Assembly: GCF_000222485.1 (NCBI RefSeq)
Contig: NC_015914.1
Location: forward strand, 4,570,001 to 4,634,000
Reading direction: 5' to 3'
DNA from: Cyclobacterium marinum DSM 745
GTDB lineage: Bacteria; Bacteroidota; Bacteroidia; Cytophagales; Cyclobacteriaceae
DNA length: 64,000 bases
Numbering within the stretch: the first letter of the stretch is position 1; every line of letters begins with the position of its first letter. Both the position numbers and the translations under genes were made by a program. The notes beneath the pieces are model-generated. The model ran no database searches. It was not told where the DNA came from and saw only the letters and a list, made by a program, of their open reading frames with translations. This document shows positions 1,040-25,425 of this stretch, piece after piece.

Positions 1040-4000
1040 ATGACAAGAAAACTACTATTATTCTTATGCCTAGCTCTATTGTTAGGTTTAAGCGAATCTT
1101 TTGCACAATCCGTGCAAGTAAAAGGTACTGTCACCGATGATTCGGATTTACCCGTTCCAGGGGTAAGTATCCTTGTGAAAGGAACCAATCAAGGAACTGT
1201 GACAGACATTGACGGCAATTACCAATTGAATGTGGCAAATGCCCAATCGGTATTGGTTTTTTCTTTCCTAGGTTTTAAAAACCAGGAAATTACCGTAGGA
1301 AATCAAGATCAAATTGATGTAAAACTACAATCAGAGATGTCAGATCTAGGAGAAGTAGTGGTGGTGGGATATGGTACCCAGAAAAAATCTGACCTTACAG
1401 GGGCAGTGGCAACCATCGGAGGTAGAGATTTGGCCAATCGGAGAACGGCCAATGTATCACAGGCCCTTCAAGGGCAGGTTTCAGGTGTCATGGTAACCCG
1501 GAACAACTCTGCGCCGGGTTCTTCTGCCAATATTAGAATTCGTGGAATTACTACCATTGGAGACAGTAATCCTTTAATTATTATGGATGGGGTGCCGGTT
1601 AATAGCATTGACCATATCAATCCCAATGACATTGAAAACATATCCGTGCTTAAAGATGCAGCTTCAGCATCTATTTATGGTTCACGAGCTGCGGCAGGCG
1701 TAATTCTGGTAACCACCAAAAGAGCGAAAAAGGGTGAACTAAGCCTGAATTATAATTTTGAATATGGTACTGAAGTCCCTACCAGAATTCCGGAATATGT
1801 AGACGTAACACGCTATATGGGCATGGTGAACGAATTAAGGTGGAATGACAATGGGAATGATGGCAATGAATACCCCTTGTATCCACAAGACATGGTGGAC
1901 AACTACATGGACTTAAACGCTTCGAACCCTGATTTGTATCCCAATACGGATTGGGTGGGGTTGATCCTCAAAAAGAGTGCTCCCAGACAACGCCATTCTT
2001 TGGATATCTCAGGAGGAACAGATGCAATCCGAACGAAAGCTTCATTTGTATATGACAAATTTGACGCTTTATATGAGGGAAGGACCTTTGAAAGGTTTAC
2101 TGCCAGAGTTAACACGGATGGAAATATCACGGACAAACTTGGGTTTACAGCAGATGTTTTCTTAAGAAGAGAAATTCTGAATCAACCGAGCATGGATCCC
2201 ATTTATATGATGAATATATCAGCGCCGGTTTATGCTGCAGAATGGCAAGATGGCAGAGTAGCTGAAGGCAAAACAGGAGCCAATATTTATGGTCAATTAA
2301 AATATGGTGGAACACGTCAAAATTGGGAAAATCAAGTCGGCGGCCGTTTGGGCTTGAATTATGAAATCACGGAAGGATTAAAAATTTCCGCTATTGCTTC
2401 TCCAAATTTTGGTTTTGATAAAGGAAAGAATTTTCAGAAAAAAGTAAGCTATACGGCATGGGACGACCCCACGGTGACCCTAGGTAACCTGCAATGGGCC
2501 AATTCCACCTATTTGAGCGAAGCTAGAAACGACAATCAGCAATTGACTACGCAATTGTTATTGAATTACGACAAGGTCTTTGGAAAACATACCTTGAACG
2601 TATTGGCAGGAAATGAAAGCTTTCAGTCATTTAATGAAAACCTTTCTGCCTCCAGAGATCAGTTTTTACTGGACAATTACCCTTACTTAAACTTAGGCCC
2701 TCTTGAGTTTAGGGGGAATTCAGGAAGTGCTTATGAAAATGCCTACAATTCCTGGTTTGGACGTTTTTCCTACAATTATGACAACAAATATTTCCTTCAA
2801 GGAAATTTAAGGTATGATGCCTCTTCCCGCTTTGCAAGTGATTATCGTTGGGGATCGTTCCCCTCCTTCTCAGCAGGTTGGGTATTGTCCGAAGAAGACT
2901 TTTTAAAAGGCCATGAGGCCATCTCCTTTCTTAAGTTGAGAGGTTCTTATGGTACCTTAGGTAACGAAAGAATAGGGAATTACCCATACCAATCTACCAT
3001 CGGTTTTAGTAATGTATTGTTTCATCAAGGGTCCAATGTGGTGTCTTCCCAATCCTCTGCCCAATGGCAATATGCGATCCCAAATATTTCTTGGGAAAAA
3101 ACCTCCTCATATAATATAGGTGTCGATGCCAATTTTCTCAATTATAGATTGAGAGTTTCGGGTGAATATTTCAATAAAACCACAAGCGATATGTTATTGC
3201 CTTTGGAAATTCCAGATTATATAGGCTTTGATAACCCTGATCAAAATACTGGTCAGATGAATACCAAAGGTTGGGAATTAGACCTTGGTTGGGCTGATGA
3301 TATCAATGAACTGGGCTATAGCATTAGTTTCAACATCTCAGATTTCAAATCAGTGATGGGAGACCTGGGAGGCATTCAGTTTTTGGGAAGTCAGGTAAGG
3401 AAAGAAGGTTCTGAGTTTGACGAATGGTATGGCTATGTTTCTCAAGGGCTTTTCCAAACTCAGGAGGAAGTCGACAATTCTCCTGTGATGAATGCCAATG
3501 TAAAGCCCGGTGACGTGAAATACCTGGACATTAGCGGACCAAATGGAGAGCCTGACGGCAAAATCTCCCCTGAATATGACCGAACCCTTTTGGGCGGAAG
3601 TATGCCAAGATTTATGTATGGAGGTAATATACAGTTGGATTTCAGGAACTTTGATTTTGGACTTGTAATCCAAGGAATAGGTAAGCAAAATAGCCGTTTG
3701 TCAGGGTTAATGGTGGAACCACTTGTTGAAAACTGGGGATCAATACCACAAATAATAGATAATAACTACTGGAGTACATACAATAGTGCTGCGGAAAATG
3801 AAAATGTTGGCTATCCTAGATTATCTAGAAACAGTCAGTCAAACAACTATGCCATGTCAGATTATTGGATGATTAATGGTGCCTATTTCAGGTTGAAAAA
3901 TATCTCTTTAGGATATACTCTTCCCACTTCGATTGCAGAAAGGTTAGGCATGCAAAATATCAGGGTTTATGGCAATGCTACAGACCTACTGACCATTGAT

Positions 4001-4090
4001 AATTATCCACAAGGTTGGGATCCTGAAGTTTCTGTAACGGGCTATCCGATTACTTCCTCTTTCCTTATGGGTGTATCTGTTCAATTTTAA
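1040..4090 (+). CDS. SusC/RagA-family TonB-dependent outer-membrane receptor
   Basis: The protein has 1016 residues. A signal peptide (about 1-23, ending SFAQ) is followed by a carboxypeptidase-regulatory-like Ig domain (about 27-97, VKGTVTDDSDLPVPGVS), a TonB-box-like GEVVVVGYGTQKK at about 104-116, a plug domain (LQGQVSGVMV; IRIRGI; LKDAASASIYGSRAAAGVILVTT) and a 22-strand-type barrel ending in a hydrophobic residue and Phe. It imports oligosaccharides through the outer membrane with the SusD partner encoded 12 bp downstream. It is the first gene of a long + strand operon and lies about 130 bp after the palindromic operator. Family assignment is certain; the substrate is not. Confidence 0.97.
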   Translation: MTRKLLLFLCLALLLGLSESFAQSVQVKGTVTDDSDLPVPGVSILVKGTNQGTVTDIDGNYQLNVANAQSVLVFSFLGFKNQEITVGNQDQIDVKLQSEMSDLGEVVVVGYGTQKKSDLTGAVATIGGRDLANRRTANVSQALQGQVSGVMVTRNNSAPGSSANIRIRGITTIGDSNPLIIMDGVPVNSIDHINPNDIENISVLKDAASASIYGSRAAAGVILVTTKRAKKGELSLNYNFEYGTEVPTRIPEYVDVTRYMGMVNELRWNDNGNDGNEYPLYPQDMVDNYMDLNASNPDLYPNTDWVGLILKKSAPRQRHSLDISGGTDAIRTKASFVYDKFDALYEGRTFERFTARVNTDGNITDKLGFTADVFLRREILNQPSMDPIYMMNISAPVYAAEWQDGRVAEGKTGANIYGQLKYGGTRQNWENQVGGRLGLNYEITEGLKISAIASPNFGFDKGKNFQKKVSYTAWDDPTVTLGNLQWANSTYLSEARNDNQQLTTQLLLNYDKVFGKHTLNVLAGNESFQSFNENLSASRDQFLLDNYPYLNLGPLEFRGNSGSAYENAYNSWFGRFSYNYDNKYFLQGNLRYDASSRFASDYRWGSFPSFSAGWVLSEEDFLKGHEAISFLKLRGSYGTLGNERIGNYPYQSTIGFSNVLFHQGSNVVSSQSSAQWQYAIPNISWEKTSSYNIGVDANFLNYRLRVSGEYFNKTTSDMLLPLEIPDYIGFDNPDQNTGQMNTKGWELDLGWADDINELGYSISFNISDFKSVMGDLGGIQFLGSQVRKEGSEFDEWYGYVSQGLFQTQEEVDNSPVMNANVKPGDVKYLDISGPNGEPDGKISPEYDRTLLGGSMPRFMYGGNIQLDFRNFDFGLVIQGIGKQNSRLSGLMVEPLVENWGSIPQIIDNNYWSTYNSAAENENVGYPRLSRNSQSNNYAMSDYWMINGAYFRLKNISLGYTLPTSIAERLGMQNIRVYGNATDLLTIDNYPQGWDPEVSVTGYPITSSFLMGVSVQF

Positions 4091-4102
4091 ACCAACTTTA
4101 CC

Positions 4103-5791
4103 ATGAAATTAAAAACAATAATAAATACCGCACTTTTGGTAGGAATGGTTGGCTGTGCTGATCTGGATTTAAATCCCCTATCAGAAGGTTCAAGTGAAGC
4201 CTGGTATTCCAATGCCACAGAAGTTGAAATGTCAGTGAATGACCTGTTTAGAAGTGTGTTTTGGCAGGGTTATGAAGATTCTTGGACGGATGATTTTACC
4301 AATAGGGAAGCATTAACCCCTATTACTAATGCCACAATAAATGGAGAATGGGGTACCTTGAATACCTTGTGGGCCAATACTTACAAAGTCATTGCCCGTT
4401 CTAATACCTTATTGCTCAATATGGATAAAATCCAAGGAACTGTACCTCAAGCTACAATTGATACCTATACAGGAAATGCGCATTTTGTTCGAGCTGCTAA
4501 ATACGGTGAGTTGGTCTTTCTCTTTGGTGATGTCATCCATTCCACAACTATTTTGAGCTTGGAAGAGGCATTCACCATGGGGCGAACGGATAAAAATACA
4601 GTGAAAGAAGCTGTCTATGAAGATTTTGATATTGCAGCAAGCTTACTTCCGGAATCATATGGTTCATCTGAAAATAAACTGGCGACTAAAGGAGCCGCTT
4701 ATGCCATGAAAGCACGTTTTGCCTTGCAAATGGGCGATTTTGCGATTGCTCGTGACGCTGCCAAAGCTTGCATGGATTTAGGTGTTCATGAATTGTATCC
4801 CGATTATGGCGAATTGTTTTTAACAGGTACCAGAAATCCAAGTGAAGTAATTTTTGCCATGCCAAGGTCCAGATCATTGAATGTTACTTGGAGTGTAAGA
4901 AATTACCTTCCCAGAAATGTTGGAGGCTGGGGTGGAGCTTTTGCACCTTCTTGGGATCTATTGCATGCTTACCTTTGTACAGATGGTTTGCCTATTGATG
5001 AATCTCCTCTGTATGATCCCAGAAATCCATTTGAAAATAGGGATCCAAGGTGTGCAGCTACAATTGTGCCTTTCCAATCACGGCATTTGAATTTCACCTA
5101 TCAACCACATCCGGATTCTACTGAGGTTATGAATTTCAATACCGGAAGCTATCAAACCAATAATGACACTCGATCGGTAGCTGCTTTTGCTTCATTCAAT
5201 GGTTTACTTAGAAAGAAAGGTGTGGATGAAGATTGGTTATTGAATTATCAAGCAGAAAATGATGAAATCCTAATGCGTTATGCAGATGTATTGCTAATGT
5301 ATGCAGAAGCAAAAATTGAATTGGGAGAAATAGATGGAAGTGTTCATGAGGCAATGAATTCTGTGAGAGCTAGGGCTTATGGCGTAGCGGTAGAGCAGGT
5401 GACAGAATACCCTGCAATTACCAGTAGCGATCAGGCTGAATTAAGAACTATTTTAAGGACAGAACGGAGAATGGAATTTGGTTTTGAAGGGGTCAGGTAC
5501 AGTGACATTATTCGGTGGGAAATTGCTGAAAAAGTACTTAACAGAGATGTTTATGGCATGTTGGATGTAGCGGAATTGAAAGAAAAAGTCATAGATCAGG
5601 ATCTTTGGTTTTTTCCTATGACTCCAGAAATAGACGAAGATGGGGTAGCCGATCTTTCGCCAATGTTCGAGGCAGGCCTTGTAAAACGTTTGGCCATCAG
5701 GCAATTTGAAGCTCCCAAACAATACCTTTGGCCTATTCCTTCAAAAGAAATTTTGATTAATAGTAACTTGGAACAAAATCCGGGTTATTAA
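4103..5791 (+). CDS. SusD/RagB-family outer-membrane glycan-binding lipoprotein
   Basis: The protein has 562 residues. The N-terminus is a lipoprotein signal (lipobox GMVGC, with ADLDLNP after the Cys). The body shows SusD hallmarks: a helical TPR-like core (HFVRAAKYGELVFLFGDV), then RYADVLLMYAEAKIELG, the basic RTERRMEFGFEGVRYSDIIRW block and the C-terminal LWPIPSKEILINSNLEQNPGY. It acts as the surface lid and sugar-binding partner of the SusC at 1040, from which it is 12 bp away. Carbohydrate specificity is not predictable. Confidence 0.97.
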   Translation: MKLKTIINTALLVGMVGCADLDLNPLSEGSSEAWYSNATEVEMSVNDLFRSVFWQGYEDSWTDDFTNREALTPITNATINGEWGTLNTLWANTYKVIARSNTLLLNMDKIQGTVPQATIDTYTGNAHFVRAAKYGELVFLFGDVIHSTTILSLEEAFTMGRTDKNTVKEAVYEDFDIAASLLPESYGSSENKLATKGAAYAMKARFALQMGDFAIARDAAKACMDLGVHELYPDYGELFLTGTRNPSEVIFAMPRSRSLNVTWSVRNYLPRNVGGWGGAFAPSWDLLHAYLCTDGLPIDESPLYDPRNPFENRDPRCAATIVPFQSRHLNFTYQPHPDSTEVMNFNTGSYQTNNDTRSVAAFASFNGLLRKKGVDEDWLLNYQAENDEILMRYADVLLMYAEAKIELGEIDGSVHEAMNSVRARAYGVAVEQVTEYPAITSSDQAELRTILRTERRMEFGFEGVRYSDIIRWEIAEKVLNRDVYGMLDVAELKEKVIDQDLWFFPMTPEIDEDGVADLSPMFEAGLVKRLAIRQFEAPKQYLWPIPSKEILINSNLEQNPGY

Positions 5792-5808
5792 TACAGAATA
5801 AATTGAAT

Positions 5809-5840
5809 TCCGGTCGGTGAAATTAGGTTTCCCGACCGGA
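5809..5840 (+). other. Strong intra-operon stem-loop between susD and sulfatase
   Basis: TCCGGTCGG (5809-5817) pairs with CCGACCGGA (5832-5840), a 9-bp GC-rich stem with a 14-nt loop. No T-run follows, so it is not a standard terminator. In Bacteroidota loci such a hairpin after susD could stabilise the 3' end of susCD mRNA and lower expression of downstream enzyme genes. That role is inference. Confidence 0.6.
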
Positions 5841-5904
5841 TCATACACGAAAAGCTAAATTCACTTTAAGGGGGAGTTTCGAGGGATAGTTGAATACTTG
5901 TTAT

Positions 5905-7299
5905 ATGAAAAAGTCAATACATCTTTTAGTGATAGGTACATTGATATTGCTACCTTATTATGTTGTTTCTCAGTCCTATACAAATAATAAAAAGCCCAAT
6001 ATCATCTTTATTTATGCCGATGATTTACGATTTGATGGACTAGGGGTAAATGGAAACCGCCATATAATCACCCCAATGTTAGATAACATTGCAGAAAAAG
6101 GTGTACGATTCAATCAGGCCAATGTGGTCTTTTCCTTGTGTAGTCCAAGTAGGGCAGCCCTACTAACAGGTAGGTATGGCAGTGCCAATGGTGTCTTGGA
6201 ACTAGGAAGTGACCTTAATGATAAAGAATTAACGGTTGCTGAATATTTAGGAGAAGCCGGGTACCATACAGGAATGACCGGTAAATGGCATATTGGTAAG
6301 GAACCGAAAAAAGCAGGTTTTGACTTTTCTGTGTTTTTTAGAAGTAATGGTAACTATTATGGAAGAACCATAAATGATGAAGGAAAAAATAAAAAAGTTG
6401 AGAAACACTGCGACCTCTACTGTGCTGAAAGGGCAGTGGATTTTATAAAGGATGCATCAAAAAAAGACAAACCCTTTTTCCTTTTTCACAATACCCAATT
6501 GCCCCATATGAATGGTGATTTGGTTTGGGATGCAAGACAAGAGACCAAAGATAAATACAAGATTTCGGAAATGCCGGTGGCCCAAAACCGTCTAGATGAT
6601 CTTAGGGGTAAGCCGGAATACCTTAGGTCAGGAAGAAACCTGAGCCAAGCAAAAATATATGGGTATCCGGATAGTCTGGCGATTCAGAAACATACATTGG
6701 ATTATTATTCGGTAATAACAGAAATGGATGAGTTTCTTGGTTTGTTATTTAAAACGATAGAAGATCTTGGTTTGAATGAGAATACCTATGTGTTTTTTAT
6801 GAGTGACAATGGTTGGATGCTAGGGGAACATGGATTGACAAGTAAAGTATTGCCTTATCAACCTTCCACTCAAGTACCCTTTTTCGTAATAGGGCCTGAT
6901 TTAATTCCTACAGATTTAGATCATATGGTAGTCAATATTGATATTGCCCCAACCTTGATGGAAATGGCAGGAATTCAGTTACCGGAAAACCTACATGGGA
7001 AAAGTCTATTACCACTCTTAAAGAGAAAGCCTATAGATTGGCGAAATTCATTTGTATACGAAGGTCTCGGTACTTATGGAGGAGCTTTACCGAATTTAAC
7101 AGTAATCAACAAAGAATTTCGTTATATTGAAACCTTTGAAGATAGTAGCCTAGAAAAAGTTATTTTTCAAGAATTTTATGATCAGATTCAGGATCCAAAG
7201 GAAGAAAATAATTTGATCGGTTCACCAGCCATACAAGCAAAAGTTATTGCTGCCAAAGAACTCATCGAGGCACATAAAAATAAGGTGTTAAAAAAATAA
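5905..7299 (+). CDS. Exported type I (formylglycine) sulfatase
   Basis: I chose the ATG at 5905 (464 residues) because it begins the signal peptide MKKSIHLLVIGTLILLPYYV; an upstream in-frame TTG at 5890 is less likely. The sulfatase domain starts at about 31 (PNIIFIYADDLRFDG, with the Asp pair for Ca binding). The CSPSR maturation motif has its Cys at 79, followed by LLTGRYG; the TGKWHIGK lysine/histidine segment and MSDNGWMLGEHG metal-site region follow. The Cys should be converted to formylglycine. It hydrolyses sulfate esters, probably from a sulfated glycan in the periplasm. It follows susD by 113 bp, separated by a hairpin. Its S1 subfamily and regiospecificity are not readable by eye. 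Confidence 0.94.
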   Translation: MKKSIHLLVIGTLILLPYYVVSQSYTNNKKPNIIFIYADDLRFDGLGVNGNRHIITPMLDNIAEKGVRFNQANVVFSLCSPSRAALLTGRYGSANGVLELGSDLNDKELTVAEYLGEAGYHTGMTGKWHIGKEPKKAGFDFSVFFRSNGNYYGRTINDEGKNKKVEKHCDLYCAERAVDFIKDASKKDKPFFLFHNTQLPHMNGDLVWDARQETKDKYKISEMPVAQNRLDDLRGKPEYLRSGRNLSQAKIYGYPDSLAIQKHTLDYYSVITEMDEFLGLLFKTIEDLGLNENTYVFFMSDNGWMLGEHGLTSKVLPYQPSTQVPFFVIGPDLIPTDLDHMVVNIDIAPTLMEMAGIQLPENLHGKSLLPLLKRKPIDWRNSFVYEGLGTYGGALPNLTVINKEFRYIETFEDSSLEKVIFQEFYDQIQDPKEENNLIGSPAIQAKVIAAKELIEAHKNKVLKK

Positions 7300-7326
7300 T
7301 TAAACTTCAGAATCAAAATAGTTGAA

Positions 7327-9816
7327 ATGAAAAGAAACAGATTTCTGTATTTATTATCGCTAATAATTTTGGCTACTTCGGCTTGTCAACAAGAAGAAGC
7401 CGAGAAAACTGAAAAGCATCGATCTATAAGTGGCATTTACCCCCATTTGGCTTATTATAACAATGAAGGAGAATGCGGAACAGGTGCCGTGGTGCCTTGG
7501 GCAGATAAATTGTGGGTGATCACTTATGGACCTCATCTACCTTTGGGTTCTTCTGATATGCTCTATGAGATCGATCAGGACCTAAATATGCAAATCAGGC
7601 CTGAAAGTATTGGGGGTACCCCAGCCAATAGAATGATTCACAAGGAAAGTGAACAATTGTTTATAGGCCCCTATGCCATCGGTAAAAATGGTGAAGTAAG
7701 GACAATTCCTTATACAGATATGCCTGGAAGACATACAGGAAATGCCAGACATTTGACAGATCCCGCCAATAAGATTTATTATGCCAGTATGGAAGAAGGT
7801 TTCTATGAGGTAGATGTGCATGATTTGTCTGTCAAACAATTTTATGAAGATGGAAATATTCGCAGAAAGAAGAAAGACGATACTGACACCAACCCTGCAG
7901 GTAGCTTACTGAAAGGTGCCCACGGAAAAGGGTATTATTCAGGACAAGGCGTTACTGTTTACTCCAACAATGGGGAGTCAGGAAGTAAAGCCTTGGAGCA
8001 GTTTGATATAGAAGCGGGTTCACTCTCTGAGTGGGATGGAGAAGAATGGAAACTTGTCCGAAGAAACCAGTTTGTAGAAGTAACAGGACCGGGTGGGATC
8101 TATGGCAATGCCAATCCGGAGACTGATCCAATATGGGCGACAGGATGGGACCATAAGTCGGTTATCCTTGCTTCCAGAGACGCGGAAAAAGGTTGGTCAT
8201 TTTATCGCCTTCCCAAAGCCAGTCACAGTTATGATGGCGCACATGGTTGGAATACTGAATGGCCTAGAATCAGAAACGTAGGAAAAGACGGTGAGCCGGA
8301 CTATCTAATGACCATGCATGGTATGTTTTGGAAGTTTCCTGAAGGTTTTCAAGAGGGTAATACCTCGGGAATTAGACCAAGATCCGCCTACCTGAAAGTG
8401 ATAGGTGATTTTACACGTTGGAATGATGGATTGGTATTTGGTACAGATGATTCTGCCAATAAAGAGTTTTTAAATACCAGAAGTGCCAAAGGAAATATTC
8501 AGGGTCCCGGCCAGTCCAATTCCAATTTATGGTTTGGTAGTATGGATCTGCCTGATGAATTGGGGCCCAATACTGCCAATGGTGCATTATGGCTCAATGA
8601 AGAGGTGAAAGCAGATATCCCTTCTGATCCCATGTTGTTTGCCGGTTGGGACAATAGAAACCTTTGGATAAAGAATGAAGGTAAATCGAATGTGATTTTC
8701 ACAATTGAAATTGATGCCAAAGGGGATGGCAATTGGGAAACCACCGACGAGGTGGAAGTGAAAGCAGGAGAGAGTACAAGAAAGTATTTTGATCAAAACA
8801 CAAGTGGTGAATGGATTCGATTAACTGCCAATCAAAATACCATAGCTACTGCCCACATGGCTTTTGCCAATCCTGAAACCAGGAAGGCAATGCAGACAGG
8901 GATTTTTAAAGGAGTCAATACCATTGAGCAAAATGATTTTATCGGTGGATTCTTGTATGGTTTGGGAGATGATAGGAGAAAGTTAGGCTTGGTAGCTAAG
9001 TCTTATAAAGAAGGGAAACCTACAGACCTGGGCTATTATGAAATGGACGATAAATTCCAATTGGTAAAAGTGGAGGATCCCACTACCCAGCAGTTTATCA
9101 ATGACAATTTTCAGATTCCTAAAAATGTGTTTGAAGTGGATGAAGCTTCTGTGTTGGTTATTGATGACAAGGGCAGAAGGTGGCGTTTACCTAAAGGCAA
9201 TGAGCGCTATACTGAGCCCTCTTTATCAGGAAACCTAAGAATTTGTAGAGAAGTGGCTACAGAGAGAGATTTGTTCAATTGCCATGGGACTTTTTATGAA
9301 TTGCCTGCTGAAAATGCAGATGGTTATGCTAAAATCAGACCGGTGGCTTCCCATCAGTTAAAAATCAATGATTATGCTTCTTACAGGGGAATGCTATTGT
9401 TAACAGGTGTTGACCCTGAAGCAGCGGCATCGAATGAACACATTGTTGTTTCTGATGATGGTAAAGTTGCTGTATGGACCGGAGCCATTGATGATCTTTG
9501 GCAATTGGGGAAACCTGTAGGAAAAGGTGGCCCTTGGGCAAATTCTGATATCGAAGCCGGCGAACCTTCCGATCCCTACTTGTTTGCTTTTTACGACAAG
9601 CGTACACTAGAGCTTAGTCATGATGCCAAGGAGGCCGTTACATTTACTATTCAAATGGAACCGATAGGCCACGGACCTTGGATGGATTATAAAGAGGTAA
9701 CCGTACCTGCAGGTAAAACCCATGTGGAGCAATTTCCTGAAGGGATTGAAGCCAGGTGGGTAAGGTTGGTAGGAAATCAAAATTGTAAAGCAAGCGCTCA
9801 ATTTTCTTATAAATAA
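7327..9816 (+). CDS. Large exported lipoprotein of unknown function, internally duplicated
   Basis: The protein has 829 residues and a lipoprotein signal ending ATSAC, 27 bp after the sulfatase. I do not recognise a named family. An internal repeat is clear. SDPMLFAGWDNRNLWI (about 433) and SDPYLFAFYDKRTLEL (about 746) begin two similar domains of about 85 residues, both containing a GxGxW segment, VxVxAG and WxRLxxNQN. The preceding parts also match: YLKVIGDFTRWNDGLVFGTD against QLKINDYASYRGMLLLTGVD, then LWFGSMD against VWTGAID. It therefore looks like two copies of a propeller-like module plus a beta-sandwich. The early part (LWVITYGPH; MLYEIDQDL; NKIYYASMEEGFYEVDV) has the rhythm of beta-propeller blades. 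A glycan-binding or enzymatic role at the cell surface is plausible but unproven. Confidence 0.8.
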   Translation: MKRNRFLYLLSLIILATSACQQEEAEKTEKHRSISGIYPHLAYYNNEGECGTGAVVPWADKLWVITYGPHLPLGSSDMLYEIDQDLNMQIRPESIGGTPANRMIHKESEQLFIGPYAIGKNGEVRTIPYTDMPGRHTGNARHLTDPANKIYYASMEEGFYEVDVHDLSVKQFYEDGNIRRKKKDDTDTNPAGSLLKGAHGKGYYSGQGVTVYSNNGESGSKALEQFDIEAGSLSEWDGEEWKLVRRNQFVEVTGPGGIYGNANPETDPIWATGWDHKSVILASRDAEKGWSFYRLPKASHSYDGAHGWNTEWPRIRNVGKDGEPDYLMTMHGMFWKFPEGFQEGNTSGIRPRSAYLKVIGDFTRWNDGLVFGTDDSANKEFLNTRSAKGNIQGPGQSNSNLWFGSMDLPDELGPNTANGALWLNEEVKADIPSDPMLFAGWDNRNLWIKNEGKSNVIFTIEIDAKGDGNWETTDEVEVKAGESTRKYFDQNTSGEWIRLTANQNTIATAHMAFANPETRKAMQTGIFKGVNTIEQNDFIGGFLYGLGDDRRKLGLVAKSYKEGKPTDLGYYEMDDKFQLVKVEDPTTQQFINDNFQIPKNVFEVDEASVLVIDDKGRRWRLPKGNERYTEPSLSGNLRICREVATERDLFNCHGTFYELPAENADGYAKIRPVASHQLKINDYASYRGMLLLTGVDPEAAASNEHIVVSDDGKVAVWTGAIDDLWQLGKPVGKGGPWANSDIEAGEPSDPYLFAFYDKRTLELSHDAKEAVTFTIQMEPIGHGPWMDYKEVTVPAGKTHVEQFPEGIEARWVRLVGNQNCKASAQFSYK

Positions 9817-9854
9817 AAAATACAAGGCAAACCTTAAAACCTGAATGAGATTTA

Positions 9855-10937: not shown

Positions 10938-10948
10938 ATAAACCTAAA

Positions 10949-12775: not shown

Positions 12776-12789
12776 GCCTGGCTTTAAAG

Positions 12790-14232: not shown

Positions 14233-14369
14233 TCGATTTGGAAATGTCTTTACTATTATAAGTTTAAATATTACAATTATCTTTAAATTTATATTTTAAA
14301 ATAGGCTTATTTAGAATGTCCATATTTCTCCATCATCATTAAGCATTTCCCCACCTTATTCCCAGTTGT

Positions 14370-16040
14370 ATGCATCAATTAGATTACCTAACCATTTTTA
14401 TTTTTACATTAATTATTCTTGGAGCAGGCTTGTCATTTGGTAGACAAGGAGGAGATATGAAATCTTTTTTCGCTGCGGGGGGGGCTGTTCCCTGGTCCAT
14501 TAGTGGCCTGTCTTTGTTCATGAGTTTTTTCTCTGCAGGAACCTTTGTAGTTTGGGGTTCCATTGCTTATGAATGGGGTTGGGTAGCCATCACCATTCAA
14601 ATGGCCATGTGTACCAGTGGTTTTCTGATTGGCAAATACTTGGCTCCCAAATGGAAAGAAACACAATCTATTACCGTTGCAGAATACCTTACCAATAGGT
14701 TTGGAAAAAAAGTGCAACAGTATTATACATTCATCTTCTTAGTACTATCTCTAGGTTATACAGGTGCATTTCTCTACCCGGTGGCAAAAATATTAAATGT
14801 AGTTACAGGTTTTGATATTTATTATGCCATCCTGCTTTTGGGAGGAATGATTATGCTTTATACTGCAGTTGGGGGCCTTTGGGCAGTAATTGTAACAGAT
14901 GTTTTACAGTTTGTGATTTTAACTGCTGCGGTTTTGATCGTATTACCGCTTTCTTTGGAGAAGGTAGGGGGTATGAATCAATTTATTGCTGAAGCTCCCG
15001 ACACTTTTTTTAATCTATTCAATGGTGAATATACCTTTTGGTTCATCCTGGCATTTGTTGGGTACAACACCATTTTTATAGGTGGAAACTGGGCTTATGT
15101 CCAAAGGTATACTTCTGTGAAAGATACCAAATCAGCAAGTAAGGTAGGTTATCTTTTTTGTGCATTGTACCTGATTAGTCCCTTAATTTGGATGTTGCCT
15201 CCTATGATTTATCGGGTTTTGGATCCCAGTCTTACAGGATTAGAAACAGAAGGAGCCTATCTGAGAATGTGTATGAGTGTGTTACCTGTAGGTATGTTGG
15301 GTTTAATGCTTGGAGGAATGATCTTTGCCACAGCCAGCTCGGTCAACACTTCTCTCAATCTTGCTGCTGCAGTTTTGACCAATGATGTTTACCAGCCTCT
15401 GAATCCAAATGCTGCCCCTAAGACTCTGATGAAAGTGGCCAGAATAGCAACACTCCTCTTTGGCTTGGGTACCATAGGTGTGGCGTTTATGGTCCCTCTG
15501 GCCGGAGGTATAGTGGAGGTAGTGCTAAGCATCGGGGCAGTTACCGGAGGTGCCCTATATGCCCCTGCTATTTGGGGGCTATTTTCGAAAAAACAAACAG
15601 GATCTTCCATTTTGGTTGTTACCGGACTGAGCCTTTTAATCAATCTATTTTTTAAGTTTATTTCTCCGGCCTTATTTTCTTTTGCCTTAGGGCGTAGTAG
15701 TGAAATGATTGTAGGAGTGTTTTTACCTATTGCACTTTTGGCCTTCTATGAAATTTTTGCGAGGGGTGAAAATGTCCAATTTGAGCAATACAAAAACTAT
15801 TTAGGCAGAAACAAGGATAAAGATTTGACTAATGGTTTAAACGATGGTCAAAGTCAGAATACTTATGGCTATAAGGTAATGGGTTGGGCCTTTATTGGCA
15901 TTGGTTTGTTGTTCTTTGGTCTGGGGATATGGGGAGGAGGAGGTAGCATTTATCTCTTTATAATGGGAACATTAATTTTTCTCCTCGGATATTTTGCTGT
16001 TCATTATTCAAGAAAAAAAGCGAAAGCTCAAAATATATAA
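14370..16040 (+). CDS. Sodium:solute symporter (SSS family)
   Basis: The protein has 556 residues and about 13-14 hydrophobic membrane segments. It begins MHQLDYLTIFIFTLIILGAG and contains the family-typical FFAAGGAVPWSISGLSLF loop, the TVAEYLTNRFGKK segment and FATASSVNTSLNLAAAVLTNDVY near the sodium site. It should carry a sugar or sugar acid across the inner membrane with Na+. It lies in the polysaccharide operon between a sulfatase and a cytoplasmic oxidoreductase, so it probably imports the mono- or oligosaccharide product those enzymes make. There is a 137-bp gap upstream and 24 bp downstream. The exact solute is unknown. Confidence 0.93.
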   Translation: MHQLDYLTIFIFTLIILGAGLSFGRQGGDMKSFFAAGGAVPWSISGLSLFMSFFSAGTFVVWGSIAYEWGWVAITIQMAMCTSGFLIGKYLAPKWKETQSITVAEYLTNRFGKKVQQYYTFIFLVLSLGYTGAFLYPVAKILNVVTGFDIYYAILLLGGMIMLYTAVGGLWAVIVTDVLQFVILTAAVLIVLPLSLEKVGGMNQFIAEAPDTFFNLFNGEYTFWFILAFVGYNTIFIGGNWAYVQRYTSVKDTKSASKVGYLFCALYLISPLIWMLPPMIYRVLDPSLTGLETEGAYLRMCMSVLPVGMLGLMLGGMIFATASSVNTSLNLAAAVLTNDVYQPLNPNAAPKTLMKVARIATLLFGLGTIGVAFMVPLAGGIVEVVLSIGAVTGGALYAPAIWGLFSKKQTGSSILVVTGLSLLINLFFKFISPALFSFALGRSSEMIVGVFLPIALLAFYEIFARGENVQFEQYKNYLGRNKDKDLTNGLNDGQSQNTYGYKVMGWAFIGIGLLFFGLGIWGGGGSIYLFIMGTLIFLLGYFAVHYSRKKAKAQNI

Positions 16041-16064
16041 TAAAACCTGAATTCAGTTAATTAG

Positions 16065-18350
16065 ATGATCAAAGAAAATTTTACGCAAGAGAAGCGAGGG
16101 CTTAAAAATGAAAATATTGATTCAGACCTTGTGATTGTAGGAGGTGGCCTTGCAGGGACCTGTTGTGCCATTACAGCAGCAAGGCAAGGTATCAATGTAG
16201 TGTTAGTACAAGATAGGCCTGTATTGGGAGGGAATGGCTCATCTGAAATTCGCCTATGGATTCTTGGGGCAACTTCACATATGGGTAACAATAATCGTTG
16301 GGCTAGAGAAGGAGGAGTTATCGATGAGATTCTTTTGGAAAATTTATACCGAAACCCTGAAGGGAATCCTTTGATATTGGATACTATCCTTATTGAGAAG
16401 GTTACTGAACTTCCGAATATCAAGCTTCTGTTGAATACAGCTATGTATGATTTAGAGAAGAAAGGGAACGATACCATTGATCATGTATTGGCATTTTGCA
16501 GCCAGAATTCCACGATATATAGGCTAAAAGCCCCATTGTTTGTGGACGGATCCGGAGATGGGATTATGAGTTTTATGGCAGGTGCTGCTTTCAGGATGGG
16601 GGCTGAGGCCGCCAGTGAATTCGATGAAGCTTTCGCACCGGATCAAGCGTATGGAGAGCTACTTGGACACAGCTTGTATTTTTACAGTAAAGATACAGGT
16701 AAACCTGTTAGGTTTGTTGCTCCCCAATATGCTAATACCGAAATTGAGGAATTACCAAGGTTTAAATCTTTCAATTTGAAAGACCATGGTTGCCGGCTTT
16801 GGTGGGTGGAATATGGCGGTAGAAAAGATACAATTCATGATTCTGAAACAATTAAATGGGAACTTTGGAGAGTAATTTACGGCATCTGGAATCACTTGAA
16901 AAATTCAGGAGAATACCCGGAAACAGACACCCATACCTTGGAATGGGTAGGTTCGATTCCAGGAAAAAGAGAGAGCCGAAGATTTGAAGGAGATTATATT
17001 TTGTCTCAAAAAGATGTGGTAGAACAACGAGAGTTTAGTGATGCGATTTCCTATGGTGGTTGGGCTTTGGACCTACATCCTGCAGATGGAGTTTATGGAG
17101 AAAAACCCGGCTGTACGCAATGGCATACAAAAGGTATTTATCAGATTCCTTACAGGACCATGTACAGCAAAAATATCAGTAATTTATTTTTGACCGGAAG
17201 GATAATTAGTGCCAGTCATGTGGCCTTTGGATCGAGTCGGGTAATGGCGACTTGTGCCCACAATGCCCAGGCCGTGGCCATGGCTGCAGTGCTCTGCAAG
17301 GAGGAGGAAATTAGCCCTTCAGAAATCCTAAATGAGGGTAGGATAGAAGCCTTAAAAGATCGCTTGGTTTTACATGGGCAATACATCCCTAATCATGTGT
17401 TGAAATTGAAAGAAGATTTGGCTCCATTGGCAACGATATCTGCTTCTTCCACCATGAGATTGTCGGGACTGGCCTTTGATGGACCTTGGAAATCTTTGAC
17501 CTTCGCTGCAGCACAAATGTTGCCCCTTTCCCCCGGGAAATTACCGACCATGAAATTCCTGTTCAAAGCTAAAGAAAACACCAAAATACAGGTGTCTTTG
17601 CTAAAAAGTAAAAAGAAAGGTAACTTCAGCCCGGAGGTAATATTAGCTAAAAAAGAGTTTGAATTAACTTTAGGTGAACAATATTTAACAATTGATTTAC
17701 AGATTAATATAGAAAATTCAGAATATTATTTTGTGGCTTTTGAAGCCAATGACAAGGTGTCGATAAGGTGTTCTCAAACAAGGGCCACAGGACTCCTCAC
17801 CGTCTTCCAAAAATTCAATAAAGCTGTAGCTACCTCTAGCAGGCAAGAACCACCAAAAGGTATTGGTATTGAGGATTTTGACTTTTGGTTACCGGAAAGA
17901 AGGCCTGAAGGTCATAACCTAGGATTTGAGTTTTCTGAGGCTATTGACCTATATTCAACAAAAGATTTAGTGAATGGCATTTTTAGACCTACAGTGTCCT
18001 CAAATGCTTGGGCAGCTTGCTTAAATGATTCTCATCCATTCATTGAGATGGTTTGGGATAAATACCAGATTATAAGTGAGTTAAAATTGTATTTTGATAC
18101 TGATTTTGACCATGCACTAGAGTCAACCCTAATGGGACATCCGGAACATGAAATACCTTTTTGTGTGAGAGAGATTGAAATCAGGGATGGACAGGGAAAA
18201 GTATTAGCAGCTATTCAGGACAATCATCAAACTGTTGTATCGCTTAAATTCAAAGACCCAATTGAAACGGACCAATTGAAGTTATCTTTTAAGCAAAAAC
18301 TTGAGCATGTTCCAGTAGCTTTATTTGGTATAGTATGTTTAAAGAAATGA
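16065..18350 (+). CDS. Cytoplasmic FAD-dependent oxidoreductase with C-terminal discoidin-like domain
   Basis: The protein has 761 residues and no signal peptide. It opens directly with charged residues, then SDLVIVGGGLAGTCCAITAA (about 20-40) and RPVLGGNGSSEIRLW, the same FAD_oxidored signature as the 10949 gene product. VDGSGDGIMSFMAGAAFRMG and FLTGRIISASHVAFGSSRVM complete the FAD fold by about residue 410. Residues about 450-590 look like a beta-sandwich (MKFLFKAKENTKIQVSLL). A tail from about 620 (SSNAWAACLNDSHPFIEMVW) resembles a discoidin/F5-8C fold, odd for a cytoplasmic protein. The gene ends in an ATGA overlap with the next. The reaction is unknown; substrate delivery by the neighbouring symporter is plausible. 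Confidence 0.88.
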   Translation: MIKENFTQEKRGLKNENIDSDLVIVGGGLAGTCCAITAARQGINVVLVQDRPVLGGNGSSEIRLWILGATSHMGNNNRWAREGGVIDEILLENLYRNPEGNPLILDTILIEKVTELPNIKLLLNTAMYDLEKKGNDTIDHVLAFCSQNSTIYRLKAPLFVDGSGDGIMSFMAGAAFRMGAEAASEFDEAFAPDQAYGELLGHSLYFYSKDTGKPVRFVAPQYANTEIEELPRFKSFNLKDHGCRLWWVEYGGRKDTIHDSETIKWELWRVIYGIWNHLKNSGEYPETDTHTLEWVGSIPGKRESRRFEGDYILSQKDVVEQREFSDAISYGGWALDLHPADGVYGEKPGCTQWHTKGIYQIPYRTMYSKNISNLFLTGRIISASHVAFGSSRVMATCAHNAQAVAMAAVLCKEEEISPSEILNEGRIEALKDRLVLHGQYIPNHVLKLKEDLAPLATISASSTMRLSGLAFDGPWKSLTFAAAQMLPLSPGKLPTMKFLFKAKENTKIQVSLLKSKKKGNFSPEVILAKKEFELTLGEQYLTIDLQINIENSEYYFVAFEANDKVSIRCSQTRATGLLTVFQKFNKAVATSSRQEPPKGIGIEDFDFWLPERRPEGHNLGFEFSEAIDLYSTKDLVNGIFRPTVSSNAWAACLNDSHPFIEMVWDKYQIISELKLYFDTDFDHALESTLMGHPEHEIPFCVREIEIRDGQGKVLAAIQDNHQTVVSLKFKDPIETDQLKLSFKQKLEHVPVALFGIVCLKK

Positions 18351-20668
18351 AAGAATATAAGCGTTTACAATCAGTACCATTTTGGTTTTTTTTCTGGCTG
18401 TTTTGCTATTGCTCACTTCTTGTAAATGCACAGAACAATTTGTCTTTTTCTGCTCAGGCAAGCAGTAGTTCCATGGAAAAAAATCACGAACCCAAACTTG
18501 CCATTGATGGGGATTCAAACACCCATTGGAGAAGCCGGCCGGATGATGAGAATGCTTGGATAGTTCTCAAGTTTCCGGGTGCCACAGAAGTGATAAAAGT
18601 AGATATAAATTTTGTACCATCGACAGTGCCCAATGAAGCTTTTAATCTACAGTATTTACTCAATGGAGAATGGAGAACATTTCACAAAGTGACCGATAAT
18701 ATTGCCCATAAAGTGGAGGTGAATTTAAAGAAGCCTCAACTGATAGATAGGGTTAGATTGCTAGCAATAGATGGGCAAGAGATGCAACTCAATGAAGTGC
18801 AATTGTGGGGACAAAAATATGCGGATACAAGCGGGTTGGAGAATAAGCCGATACTCGTAAATCAAAGTGGATATAATCTTTATAGAAGCAAACGTTTTAC
18901 AGCACCAGAGGTCGAAGACAACACCTCATTTGCCATTGTCAATAGCAGAAGTGGAGAGGTAGAGTTTACAGGAAAAGTAGTTGGAGAGAAAGGAGATTTT
19001 TCAAATTTCAACCCCTTAAGTGAAGATGAATTTTTGGTAAAAATTAATGGACTTGAATCTTTTCCTTTTCGGATAGGTCCCAACTGGATAGAAAGAGTAA
19101 CCTATAGAAATATGGTTGACTTTATGTTGGGAGCTCGACATTATGTGGGTACGGTTGATGATATTCGGCAGATAAGTTTTGCTTGGAGAGATGGTGATTT
19201 TTTCAATTGGTCCATGCAAAGTCTGGTGGCCATGTACCTAAGTAATCCCGAGGCGTATGAGCGGATGGAAAGAAAAGGTCATTATATTTCCAATGAAGAA
19301 TTTCCTGAAAAGTACAGGGGACTATGGGGAAAATTGGAACCATTTGCTGAAAACACTCCAGACATTGTTCAGTTGATGCATTGGGATGCGGATGTTAAAA
19401 TTAGTCAAAGGTTGGATCATGAAATGCAAAAAGCAGAGTTGGCACATTTTCTTTATGCTTGGCCTTATATCAAAAGGTGGCTTCCTCAGCAAAATTTCGA
19501 CTTGATTTATCAATATGTTAAAGACAATTGGGAAAAAGAAGCAGTTTCTAAGCATTCCCTTTCTCAATACAATAAGAGTAAAGCGCATAATCTGTTATCC
19601 TTGAAAACTCAACTTGGAACGACCAAAGGAGAAATGCCACCAGGTTTTTCTGTAATACCCAACCTGATGATGTATGAAGTTGCTACACGAGTAGGTGATG
19701 TTGATGCTGAAAAGTATTTTGAAGCTGCCTATAATCAAATGGATTGGATGGTAAAGCATTTGGATTGGGCAGATCCAATGACTACCAAGGGACAAAGGAT
19801 GTCTGAGCACATGACCCTGCGGGCCTTTGCTTATTTCTATCATCAGTTTCCTGAACGATCACCAAAAGGCATTACTGATAAAGTGAATGAATGGGCGCAA
19901 ATGATGTTGGATCGATCAGAAAATCTTTGGGATTTTAGGAAATACAGTCAAAAAGAATGGACCCCACCCGGATGGAATGAGACCGGAAATATATTAGGTT
20001 TTCCGGCTGCTATTTTTGCGGCATGTGGGATTTTGACAAATAAGATTTTAGTCCAAGAAATGGAAATGCTCGCATGGTCCCATATTGAGAATGCCTTTGG
20101 TCGGAACCCTACCGGACGTCAATTTTCATATAAGGGGCCTGAGGAAGTGGAAGGGGTGGATCTTGGTTGGTACAGCAGACATAAAGGTGGAATTGGTTTA
20201 CTAGAGGATGTTCAATTTGTATTTGATGGTTCACCAAAATCCTTTCATTACCCTAATTACCCCGAGGTAGGTGACTTGGGTTGGACAGAGGGATGGGTTC
20301 AGTTCAATACTGCATTTAATATGAGCATGGCTTATATTGCCAATTATTATACAGATATAATTTTGGAAAATAAGGGAAATGGGAATTATACAATCGCACT
20401 TACTGCACCGCTTAACTTTGATTATAAGCAAACAGATGTTGCCAAAATAAAGATTGTCAATCAAGCCGGCGAAAGCCTCTTGGTGAGCTTGAAAGAGGCT
20501 TCTCCTTTGGCTGTAAAATTGGTAGGATCATTGCAAATTAAAGAAAATAGGGTGGTAGTTGGTGAAAAGAAGCTTTCCCTAGATAAGGACGACAGGATTA
20601 TCTTGACTTATGGATATGGTTATTTTGAACGGCGTTTGGTATTACCGGTTTCAAATATTGAGAAATGA
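18347..20668 (+). CDS. Exported discoidin plus CelD-N/GH9-like glycoside hydrolase
   Basis: I chose the ATG at 18347 because it forms an ATGA overlap with the previous stop and starts a clean signal peptide (773 residues); an ATG at 18335 is also in frame. Residues about 28-160 are an F5/8C domain (HEPKLAIDGDSNTHWRSRPD; LNEVQLWGQ). Next, about 167-250 is a CelD-N-type Ig domain (NKPILVNQSGYNLYRSKRFT). The rest is an alpha-helical region with a GH9-like ending (NAFGRNPTGRQFSY). The usual GH9 DAGD nucleophile motif is not visible, so activity may differ from cellulases. Tight overlap means translational coupling to the FAD oxidoreductase. Probably a periplasmic or surface glycan hydrolase of the same locus. 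Confidence 0.8.
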   Translation: MKEYKRLQSVPFWFFFWLFCYCSLLVNAQNNLSFSAQASSSSMEKNHEPKLAIDGDSNTHWRSRPDDENAWIVLKFPGATEVIKVDINFVPSTVPNEAFNLQYLLNGEWRTFHKVTDNIAHKVEVNLKKPQLIDRVRLLAIDGQEMQLNEVQLWGQKYADTSGLENKPILVNQSGYNLYRSKRFTAPEVEDNTSFAIVNSRSGEVEFTGKVVGEKGDFSNFNPLSEDEFLVKINGLESFPFRIGPNWIERVTYRNMVDFMLGARHYVGTVDDIRQISFAWRDGDFFNWSMQSLVAMYLSNPEAYERMERKGHYISNEEFPEKYRGLWGKLEPFAENTPDIVQLMHWDADVKISQRLDHEMQKAELAHFLYAWPYIKRWLPQQNFDLIYQYVKDNWEKEAVSKHSLSQYNKSKAHNLLSLKTQLGTTKGEMPPGFSVIPNLMMYEVATRVGDVDAEKYFEAAYNQMDWMVKHLDWADPMTTKGQRMSEHMTLRAFAYFYHQFPERSPKGITDKVNEWAQMMLDRSENLWDFRKYSQKEWTPPGWNETGNILGFPAAIFAACGILTNKILVQEMEMLAWSHIENAFGRNPTGRQFSYKGPEEVEGVDLGWYSRHKGGIGLLEDVQFVFDGSPKSFHYPNYPEVGDLGWTEGWVQFNTAFNMSMAYIANYYTDIILENKGNGNYTIALTAPLNFDYKQTDVAKIKIVNQAGESLLVSLKEASPLAVKLVGSLQIKENRVVVGEKKLSLDKDDRIILTYGYGYFERRLVLPVSNIEK

Positions 20669-20912
20669 CAAATTAAACGGTCCTGTTTCTTTAATTAATG
20701 ATTTCTCCATAATTTATAAAGAGACAATCCTTGCTCATTGAGTTCTATGGTGTCATCTGATTTGTTAGGGTCTAAAAATAACATTAATTTCGTTTGACAC
20801 TATAAAATTTTATGAAATGCAGTTCCGGATAATGTTCCACAGTTGGTGAAACCTTTTCATTATTTCTTTTCTTATTCGATAATTATACATATTTAAAACT
20901 GATATTTCCAAA

Positions 20913-22136
20913 ATGAGCTTTTACCCAAAAAACCAAATTACCCTTATTATTACTTTAGTTTTTGTCTTGATTTCTTCTGATTTACTTTGGGCGCAAAAAG
21001 AATTTATTCTATGGGAGGGAGCTGTTTTAAATCAAGCAAAACAAAATTCAGGTACTTCTATGGCAATGCCTGAAATGAGAAAGTTGGAAAATGAGGCAGA
21101 AATGGCCTTGAAAAGTGGACCTTTTTCAGTAGTTCATAAAAAGCAATTGCCTCCTAGTGGGGATATTCATGATTATACCAGTATGGGACCTTACTGGTGG
21201 CCGGATCCTGAAAAAGAGGATGGACTTCCTTATATAAGACGGGACGGAGAAATCAATCCGGAGTTTTATGACTATAAAGACCACGATGAATTTGGAGCTT
21301 TAATGAAGTCCTTGAATACATTAAGTAAGGCTTATTATTTTTTAGAAAATGAGCAATATGCCCAATACGCAATTAGATTAATTAAAACATGGTTTCTCGA
21401 TTCAGAAACGCGAATGAATCCAAACCTAAATTATGCTCAAAGAATTCCGGGAAGAACAGAAGGTAGAGGTATCGGTATTATAGATACTAGGCGGATGGCG
21501 GTTTTACCTGATGTGTTAAAAATGCTCTCAGCTTCTGAACATTGGGAAGTAAGCATGGAAAAGGGAATGAAGGATTGGTTGGCAGCTTATGTTTCATGGT
21601 TAGTCAATAGCAAGCATGGTAAGGATGAGGCAGTTCATGGAAACAACCATACTACTTGGTATTTTGCCCAAATTATTCCACTGACAATTTATTTGGATCA
21701 GTCTGACAGGGCAGATAGTTTAGCAAAGGCAGGGCTACCTTTAATTTTAGAAGAAATGATTGAAAAGGATGGAAGCCAACCCGCAGAACTTGCTAGAACC
21801 ATTTCATGGAATTATAGTAGCATGAACTTGTTGGCAATAATGTATTTTGCTCAAGCCTGTGAGAAAGTCGGGATCAATTTGTGGGATGCTGTAAATGAAA
21901 AAGGTGGAAGTATAGCGAAGGGCATGGACTTTTTGTTCCAATATACCAAAACAAAAAATGATTGGCCTTATAAACAAATTAAACCGCTTAATCCGGTACT
22001 AATAAAAGATCAATTGAATATTGCGGCCTATAAATACGGGAACAAGAAGTACAAAAAAGTGGCGGATCAAATGATAAGTGAAAGTACTGAATTTAGTTAT
22101 TGGGATTTGGTGAATTTTAAGCAAATTTCAAAGTAG
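20913..22136 (+). CDS. Exported alginate-lyase-superfamily polysaccharide lyase
   Basis: The protein has 407 residues with a signal peptide (about 1-28, ending LLWAQ). The body matches the Alginate_lyase (PF05426) alpha-toroid: MGPYWWPDPEKEDGLPYIRRDG, then TEGRGIGIIDTRRM, HGNNHTTWYFAQ with the Asn-Asn-His catalytic region, and DGSQPAELARTISWNYSSMN with Arg and Tyr candidates. It cleaves 4-linked uronic acid chains by beta-elimination. I suspect family PL38 (glucuronan or alginate lyases) from the NNH and GSQPxELxRT pattern, but I cannot separate this from PL5-like relatives by eye. It lies 244 bp after the main operon and could have its own promoter. Confidence 0.85.
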   Translation: MSFYPKNQITLIITLVFVLISSDLLWAQKEFILWEGAVLNQAKQNSGTSMAMPEMRKLENEAEMALKSGPFSVVHKKQLPPSGDIHDYTSMGPYWWPDPEKEDGLPYIRRDGEINPEFYDYKDHDEFGALMKSLNTLSKAYYFLENEQYAQYAIRLIKTWFLDSETRMNPNLNYAQRIPGRTEGRGIGIIDTRRMAVLPDVLKMLSASEHWEVSMEKGMKDWLAAYVSWLVNSKHGKDEAVHGNNHTTWYFAQIIPLTIYLDQSDRADSLAKAGLPLILEEMIEKDGSQPAELARTISWNYSSMNLLAIMYFAQACEKVGINLWDAVNEKGGSIAKGMDFLFQYTKTKNDWPYKQIKPLNPVLIKDQLNIAAYKYGNKKYKKVADQMISESTEFSYWDLVNFKQISK

Positions 22137-22142
22137 TTCAAG

Positions 22143-22180
22143 TGGTTTTATTATGGTTTCACCATACACAATAAAAACCA
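22143..22180 (+). terminator. Possible terminator stem-loop after polysaccharide lyase
   Basis: Six bases past the lyase stop, TGGTTTTATT (22143-22152) pairs with AATAAAAACCA (22170-22180, one bulge). An inner ATGGT/ACCAT stem (22153-22157 with 22161-22165) is nested inside. There is no clean U-tract after it, so termination strength is uncertain. Confidence 0.4.
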
Positions 22181-25295: not shown

Positions 25296-25386
25296 TTTTC
25301 TTTGAGAAGAACTCAATTGATTATTTATAAACCCGAATTTTTATTTGGTTTTTATGTAACGCAATTTCAGTACAGGACAATCAAAA

Positions 25387-25425
25387 AAGCAAAAAAGTCC
25401 TCTTTTAAAGAGGACTTTTTTGCTT
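25387..25425. terminator. Bidirectional intrinsic terminator
   Basis: An 18-bp perfect stem (25387-25404 with 25408-25425) with a 3-nt loop has A-runs on the left arm and T-runs on the right. It lies between the convergent kinase (24090, +) and DUF2911 gene (25455, -) and fits termination in both directions. Confidence 0.92.

Follow-up and report, generated by a model that had tools for sequence, protein, structure and literature searches.

A predicted exported flavoprotein paired with a HEAT-repeat protein in polysaccharide utilization loci, with a possible role in respiratory glycan oxidation

Polysaccharide utilization loci (PULs) are understood as machines of hydrolases, lyases and sulfatases. 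We analysed an 11-gene locus of Cyclobacterium marinum DSM 745 in which such enzymes share a gene cluster with two flavoproteins, FADox1 and FADox2, and with FMNbH, a HEAT-repeat protein bearing a flavinylation-type motif. The locus occupies positions 1040-22136, all on the + strand by open reading frame (ORF) calls and Pfam, of a 64-kb forward-strand stretch (the window) of the single-contig genome of 6,221,273 bases, and close homologues are from Cyclobacterium. Several of its parts have described counterparts. According to the main text of PMC13027841, the PL38 lyases RiPL38 and BoPL38 act on alginate, glucuronan and glycosaminoglycans, and that of PMC12549532 describes S1_8A as a galactose-2-sulfate sulfatase of the lambda-carrageenan cascade. 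A figure legend in PMC5698469 places FR/SR and AA3 genes near carrageenan loci, and a passage of PMC11345257 mentions one FAD-dependent oxidoreductase adjoining a SusC/D pair.

We found that the conserved core of the locus is a redox pair, FADox and FMNbH, and not sulfation. We consider it somewhat more probable than not that FADox1 passes electrons to a covalently flavinylated FMNbH inside a PUL of the uronic-acid type, most likely oxidatively; this judgement is a joint one for the whole reading, including the FAD of FADox1, the flavin on FMNbH, the regulator and the electron route. A first-pass annotation of the window had proposed a sulfated-glycan locus in which a redox step on the sugar might be essential.

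The FADox-FMNbH pair and its distribution

The three genes of the redox part are as follows.
9855..10937, + strand: FMNbH, exported, with an N-terminal beta domain carrying the flavinylation-type motif and a C-terminal HEAT/ARM-like solenoid
10949..12775, + strand: FADox1, exported PF12831 flavoprotein (6.5e-79) with a CBM35-like N-terminal domain
16065..18350, + strand: FADox2, PF12831 protein (1.8e-86) without signal peptide

Named genomes were scanned with a 24-sequence FMNbH alignment. Of the loci found, 113 were confirmed, and the 80 best of these make up the named set (L044-L123), in which all label counts are flank-limited. The nearest same-strand partner of FMNbH was a FADox gene in 80/80 of these loci, which bears out the earlier idea that a redox step is integral to the locus. 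The distance was 400 bp or less in 78, with 642 bp in L099 and 986 bp in L083, and the partner was FADox1 in 79 and a FADox2-labelled protein of the twin-arginine (Tat)-leader type in one (L122). Because a scan of named genomes may favour close relatives, two further draws of genomes were made, both partly overlapping the named set. FADox adjoined FMNbH in 8/8 loci of the phylum draw (7 other genomes), once with apbE between them, and was adjacent in 18 of the 20 FMNbH matches found outside the source genome in the family draw. Likewise, FMNbH (360 residues) has four copies in the source genome, and 4/4 adjoin a PF12831 flavoprotein gene.

At least four FADox sub-types pair with FMNbH, namely the CBM35 type, Tat-leader types of 630-650 and of 456-468 residues and a tandem type of ~1053 residues, so that the pairing is not only the inheritance of one gene block; the partners in L035-L037, L142, L143 and L144 start with RR-type leaders. 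Gene order, whose loss in relatives the first-pass annotation had named beforehand as a reason to abandon its reading, was kept in orthologous loci, and the locus is therefore beyond chance. Loci of Dyadobacter, Spirosoma, Runella and Larkinella mostly read LacI-SusC-SusD-FMNbH-FADox1-(apbE)-GH127-like-SSF-GH2-FADox2, where SSF is a sodium:solute symporter. Six of the seven Chitinophaga loci read SusC-SusD-Lipo829-FMNbH-FADox1-apbE, the seventh (L081) holding the pair and apbE without SusC, SusD or Lipo829. Since the pair also lies in a cluster of another kind (L143, below), we take it to be a general, predicted exported redox module, seen here mostly in SusCD loci.

Some further arrangements were noted. 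Lipo829, an 829-residue lipoprotein, is the sole candidate glycan enzyme in the minimal Chitinophaga loci. Two of the paralogous loci of the source genome (L035-L037) have SusC-SusD followed by a FADox with an RR-type leader and FMNbH, with one additional gene between SusD and FADox in L035, and in the third the members of the pair are 491 bp apart. In L143 (2222-10973), where the context is not one of glycans, the neighbours of the pair encode enoyl-CoA hydratase, aldehyde dehydrogenase and CoA-transferases. Replacement of FMNbH by a cytochrome c was considered at PF12831 genes of the source genome that lack it (L038-L042). Two ORFs with a single CxxCH were found there, both in L038 and none in the others; although the ORF at 7843-9261 of L038 (472 residues, one CxxCH) adjoins the FAD gene at 9602-11611, we read this as likely chance.

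The N-terminal segment test that was used drops rows without the anchor pattern (1/80 for FADox1, this being L122, which is without FADox1; 5/80 for FMNbH; 7/35 for FADox2). A hydrophobic N-terminal segment was present in 79/79 FADox1 and 73/75 FMNbH rows and in 0/28 FADox2 rows, and no twin-arginine motif was found in the anchored rows of any of the three. The FADox2 label occurs in 35/80 loci, and of the seven proteins without the anchor four start like the rest. From their N-termini FADox1 is predicted to be of the exported and FADox2 of the cytoplasmic type, in agreement with the earlier suggestion of one oxidoreductase outside and one inside the cytoplasm.

Flavinylation of FMNbH and the direction of electron flow

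The motif of FMNbH, VDAVTGATLKT, is encoded at 10281-10313. D144, A149 and T150 are invariant among the 24 aligned proteins, and the motif ends A-T in 80/80 named ones, where it takes the forms TGAT (43; also that of the source locus), SGAT (3), AGAT (33) and TCAT (1). FMNbH thus has the [ST]GA[ST]-like motif with a conserved Thr of ApbE-flavinylated FMN_bind proteins. The AGAT variant was seen in aligned proteins of Spirosoma and Runella, and loci of both genera carry apbE. An ApbE ORF (Pfam 2.5e-72 in the one checked) starts within 367 bp after the FADox gene in 40/80 named loci; in L144 apbE lies between FADox and FMNbH, and ApbE is encoded in 15/15 FMNbH genomes checked (7 from the phylum draw, 8 named) as well as in the source genome. 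Nine of the 11 sub-cut-off FMN_bind matches in 19 genomes are FMNbH, and in a profile search of solved structures its motif region matched 8p2b (E 0.014). Its homologues are named 'hypothetical', 'uncharacterized' or 'HEAT repeat' among the best 120 of 512 and the best 120 of 494, many rows being nameless. We infer that Thr150 of FMNbH probably carries covalent FMN.

The first 150 residues of FADox1 match the CBM35 structures 2w1w (TMt 0.70) and 2w47 (TMt 0.72) in Foldseek, the latter being by its title a CBM35 complex with delta-4,5-anhydrogalacturonic acid. Foldseek was the sole source of this match, no CBM35 being present among the 50 VIA rows for FADox1, a list filled by the FAD domain. 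PF00890 passes its cut-off on FADox (32 bits) but spans residues 187-223 only; PF12831 covers the domain, and FADox1 would be expected to hold FAD. Placing FADox1 by the solved-structure profile was tried and set aside, as the rows listed cover the Rossmann stretch only.

In the mechanism that we favour, the exported, FAD-holding FADox1 would dock on the glycan through its CBM35-like domain and oxidise a hydroxyl on a glycan or oligosaccharide that contains uronic acid. The electrons taken up by FADox1 would pass to an FMN attached by ApbE to Thr150 of the exported HEAT-repeat carrier FMNbH and would then enter the respiratory chain, presumably by a route to quinone. The glycan would be trimmed by the hydrolase, the lyase and, in Cyclobacterium, the sulfatases, the SSF symporter would take up the oxidised sugar, and the cytoplasmic FADox2 may complete or reverse the redox change after import. 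More tentatively, and with somewhat less than even confidence, we suggest that such loci form a class not described before, 'respiratory PULs'. In these a two-protein, double-flavin glycan dehydrogenase (a CBM35-FAD enzyme and an ApbE-flavinylated HEAT carrier) would oxidise glycans outside the cytoplasm and supply the respiratory chain with electrons ahead of import; another flavoenzyme, in the cytoplasm, would then round off an oxidise-import-convert route.

A number of observations weigh against the oxidative FADox1-FMNbH reading. Against Pfam FMN_bind, FMNbH scores 14.2 bits (E 0.37) where the cut-off is 22, and the strict [ST]GAT motif is present in just 46/80 proteins. The hhalign comparison with NqrC was weak (probability 4.7%, P 0.0085; score 26.5 vs 26.4 for the best of 200 column shuffles), and in the profile search that gave 8p2b an unrelated PTS protein scored better, over the solenoid (E 0.0058). 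The first FMN_bind-type fold match (RnfG) came at rank 15 (E 0.34, TMq 0.16), the solenoid dominating the search, and no FMN_bind fold was among the 50 VIA rows shown for FMNbH, a list that the solenoid fills. The source locus is without apbE, the sole genome copy lying ~2.1 Mb away, and there is no membrane electron acceptor in the locus. The structure model of FADox1 is of low quality (pLDDT 65.6) and was used for the CBM35-like N-terminus only, and the FADox2-labelled proteins of L076, L100 and L122 are of the Tat-leader sub-type. FMNbH is also sparse (8/296 Bacteroidota genomes, 13/60 in the family), L236 and L243, the latter a 114-residue fragment, have no FADox neighbour, and the CoA-transferase and enoyl-CoA hydratase context of L143 means that the pair does not always act on a glycan. 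Finally, the lyase label is found in just 3/80 loci.

The main rival explanation, which we regard as unlikely, runs in the reductive direction: FADox1 and FMNbH would act like fumarate or urocanate reductases, and respiratory electrons would reduce a double bond, for example that of a lyase-made unsaturated uronate. The closest published working analogue is of this kind, being the flavinylated fumarate-reductase-like enzymes of the PMC8238504 main text. The low-confidence Foldseek matches of FADox1 include many FrdA and Fcc3 chains, with FrdA at rank 1, together with the CBM35 bound to delta-4,5-anhydrogalacturonate. However, the top places in VIA go to Thi4 and further FAD folds, and the 50 rows shown contain no fumarate reductase; the lyase label is much rarer than that of GH2 (34/80 loci), and most of the host genera are known as aerobes.

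We hold it for still less likely that FMNbH is an unflavinylated HEAT scaffold and that FADox1 and FADox2 are redox-neutral or self-contained flavoenzymes, for example oxidases or epimerases. The sub-cut-off FMN_bind score, the weak profile and fold matches and the AGAT variant in 33/80 proteins would fit such a scaffold, but Thr150 and Asp144 do not vary among the 24 aligned proteins, and apbE directly follows the pair in half of the named loci, with the other arrangement in L144.

Gene content, regulation and substrate of the locus

The remaining features of the locus are listed here.
3..767, - strand: divergent LacI-family regulator (Pfam LacI 2.9e-15, Peripla_BP_1 1.1e-23); the gene extends past the window edge, the full ORF being 337 residues in L043
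891..910, no strand: LacI-type operator candidate, palindrome TAACGTTTTCGAAAACGTTT, ~148 bp upstream of susC
1040..4090, + strand: SusC-like TonB-dependent transporter (Pfam Plug/CarbopepD_reg_2)
4103..5791, + strand: SusD-like lipoprotein (PF07980, 9e-47)
5890..7299, + strand: S1-type sulfatase A, accessory (PF00884, 3.4e-51; CSPSR at 6139-6153; nearest solved structure 6hr5)
7327..9816, + strand: Lipo829, 829-residue lipoprotein without known family
12790..14232, + strand: S1-type sulfatase B, accessory (PF00884, 5.9e-49; CSPSR at 13012-13026; nearest solved structure 9bb9, S1_8A)
14370..16040, + strand: SSF symporter (PF00474, 1.7e-36)
18335..20668, + strand: exported hydrolase-like protein (F5/8 type C, PF00754, 2.8e-12, and a GH9-type N-terminal Ig domain)
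20913..22136, + strand: alginate-lyase-family (PL38-like) polysaccharide lyase (PF05426, 5.5e-80)

All genes named at first pass were recovered, namely susCD, two sulfatases with intact CSPSR, two FAD oxidoreductases, the motif protein, the symporter, the hydrolase and the lyase. The spacing of 10-140 bp given for them holds for most of the gaps (12, 98, 27, 38, 11, 14, 137, 24, -16 and 244 bp along the 11 genes), the exceptions being the overlap of FADox2 with the hydrolase gene (-16) and the gap that precedes the lyase gene (244 bp). Tandem susC/susD genes with glycan-active enzymes identify the locus as a PUL, and the divergent LacI gene with the conserved palindrome supplies the likely dedicated regulator of a SusCD PUL; the LacI label recurs in 53/80 related loci and that of SSF in 63/80. 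It can be seen that the palindrome is kept with few substitutions in 8 aligned LacI-susC intergenic regions, these being the window and the 7 Cyclobacterium loci passing thresholds, and so from Cyclobacterium only. No second copy was found in the window, nor in the genome at one mismatch or fewer. The scan pattern was derived from the 891-910 site, so that the scans are no chance test, and rarity of the palindrome is no argument because a backwards control pattern gave 3 + 1 genome matches. Within the cluster promoter-like sites (58 vs 52.7 +/- 7.4 in shuffles) and terminator-like sites (17 vs 17.1 +/- 3.9) are at chance level, and as they are no commoner than in shuffles a single transcription unit is possible. 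Taken with the rest of the favoured reading, the locus is probably under the control of LacI, which would bind the palindrome.

The hydrolase had been called GH9-like. Its N-terminal CelD_N domain is below the Pfam cut-off here (20.4 of 24.6 bits) and above it in both relatives checked (26.8 and 30.1 bits), which sustains the N-terminal part of that name, but no Pfam match to a GH9 catalytic domain was found in the protein. The lyase was named correctly as alginate-lyase-like, since besides its PF05426 match its closest solved chains, 9fi1 (E 5.9e-76) and 8bdq (2.8e-75), are titled 'Alginate lyase family protein'; we take both chains to be PL38. Lipo829 is strongly conserved (61-70% identity to the first of 8 aligned) and carries its label in 19/80 loci, with only sub-cut-off matches in Pfam and none in NCBIfam. 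It was tried as a carbohydrate-active enzyme in the solved-structure profile search and rejected, the only matches being to mitoribosomal S17 (E 0.52 or worse).

Sulfation as the defining theme of the locus was not sustained. Although CSPSR, the CxPSR sulfatase signature, occurs twice, most relatives of the locus keep the core without the sulfatases: sulfatase labels were found in 14/80 named loci vs 80/80 for the FADox-FMNbH pair, and sulfation was set aside as the core theme. The sulfatase A label, seen in Cyclobacterium only, occurs in 9/80 loci and is weak (96 bits) in two; that of sulfatase B occurs in 7/80 and is weaker in two (148-164 bits). In the Dyadobacter, Spirosoma, Runella and Larkinella loci none of the sulfatase labels exceeds 80 bits. 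In the phylum draw 4/8 loci, namely L139, L141, L142 and L144, have sulfatase-like ORFs within the fetched stretch, and in the family draw L233 has one beside FMNbH; as judged from these counts desulfation recurs as an optional accompaniment of the pair. That this is an ordinary sulfated-glycan PUL with the FAD genes as passengers is very improbable given the 80/80 and 14/80 just cited, even though these ORFs, the two intact sulfatases and lyase of the locus, and the action of sulfatase B's nearest solved relative on lambda-carrageenan products would suit it.

As for the substrate, the alginate-lyase-family enzyme, the CBM35-like domain and the GH2 of a relative are hints of a uronic-acid type. 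The GH2 of L105, the one relative checked, is near glucuronidases and the chain 'GH2 beta-galacturonate AqGalA', and no usable solved homologue was found for the GH127-like protein seen in relatives. Window positions 38617-46873, at a distance of 16 kb from the locus, hold a uronate catabolism cluster (Gfo/Idh, UxuA mannonate dehydratase, SDR, altronate dehydratase and the TRAP transporter DctPQM), which agrees with a uronic-acid substrate.

Elsewhere in the window, 48071-52526 encodes first a Planctomycete-type cytochrome/DUF1549/DUF1553 protein and then one with DUF1501, a further SusC/SusD pair lies at 54654-59172 and another SusC starts at 60533. The stretch 22001-32000 is AT-rich (GC 0.27-0.36 vs ~0.40 in the PUL) and encodes two histidine kinases.

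Relation to known systems

No description of the FMNbH-FADox pair turned up in our searches of PMC, outside which supplements, subscription papers and preprints lay, and the pair appears to be undescribed so far. If the proposed mechanism is true, some Bacteroidota gain energy, or unlock recalcitrant uronic-acid glycans, via redox chemistry outside the cytoplasm, and both a 'hypothetical' protein family and the PF12831 enzymes of PULs acquire a functional context. The locus also provides a concrete gene set for the study of oxidative glycan catabolism.

The 3-keto redox pathway of glycan breakdown uses Gfo/Idh enzymes. No Gfo/Idh/MocA dehydrogenase is among the 11 locus genes, the nearest found in the window being at 38617-39975. 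Like PL38 systems the locus holds, within a PUL, a lyase presumably of that family, and like the lambda-carrageenan cascade with its S1_8 sulfatases it has a sulfatase, B, nearest to S1_8A. Unlike this locus, the main text of PMC13027841 has neither 'FAD' nor 'oxidoreductase', and that of PMC12549532 has no 'FAD'.

With the ApbE-flavinylated FMN-binding carriers (NqrC, RnfG and multi-FMN proteins) as presented in the main texts of PMC8238504 and PMC11334425, FMNbH shares its predicted export, the [ST]GAT-like motif with an invariant Thr and the linkage to apbE. It differs from them in its sub-cut-off FMN_bind score, its C-terminal HEAT/ARM solenoid, its PF12831 partner and its location mostly in SusCD loci; neither 'polysaccharide', 'HEAT' nor 'PF12831' occurs in those two main texts, supplements lying outside the search. 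The main text of PMC8238504 presents flavinylated oxidoreductases that are fumarate-reductase-like, and proposes a flavinylated NapH-like protein as the partner of an alcohol oxidase. Both systems share with the pair, as we read it, an extracytosolic FAD or alcohol-oxidising enzyme whose link to the respiratory chain is a flavinylated protein. Unlike the fumarate-reductase-like enzymes, FADox1 appears to belong to PF12831 and not PF00890, has a CBM35-like domain and is encoded in a SusCD locus. The alcohol oxidase partner, itself a published proposal in that text, gives the oxidative direction a precedent.

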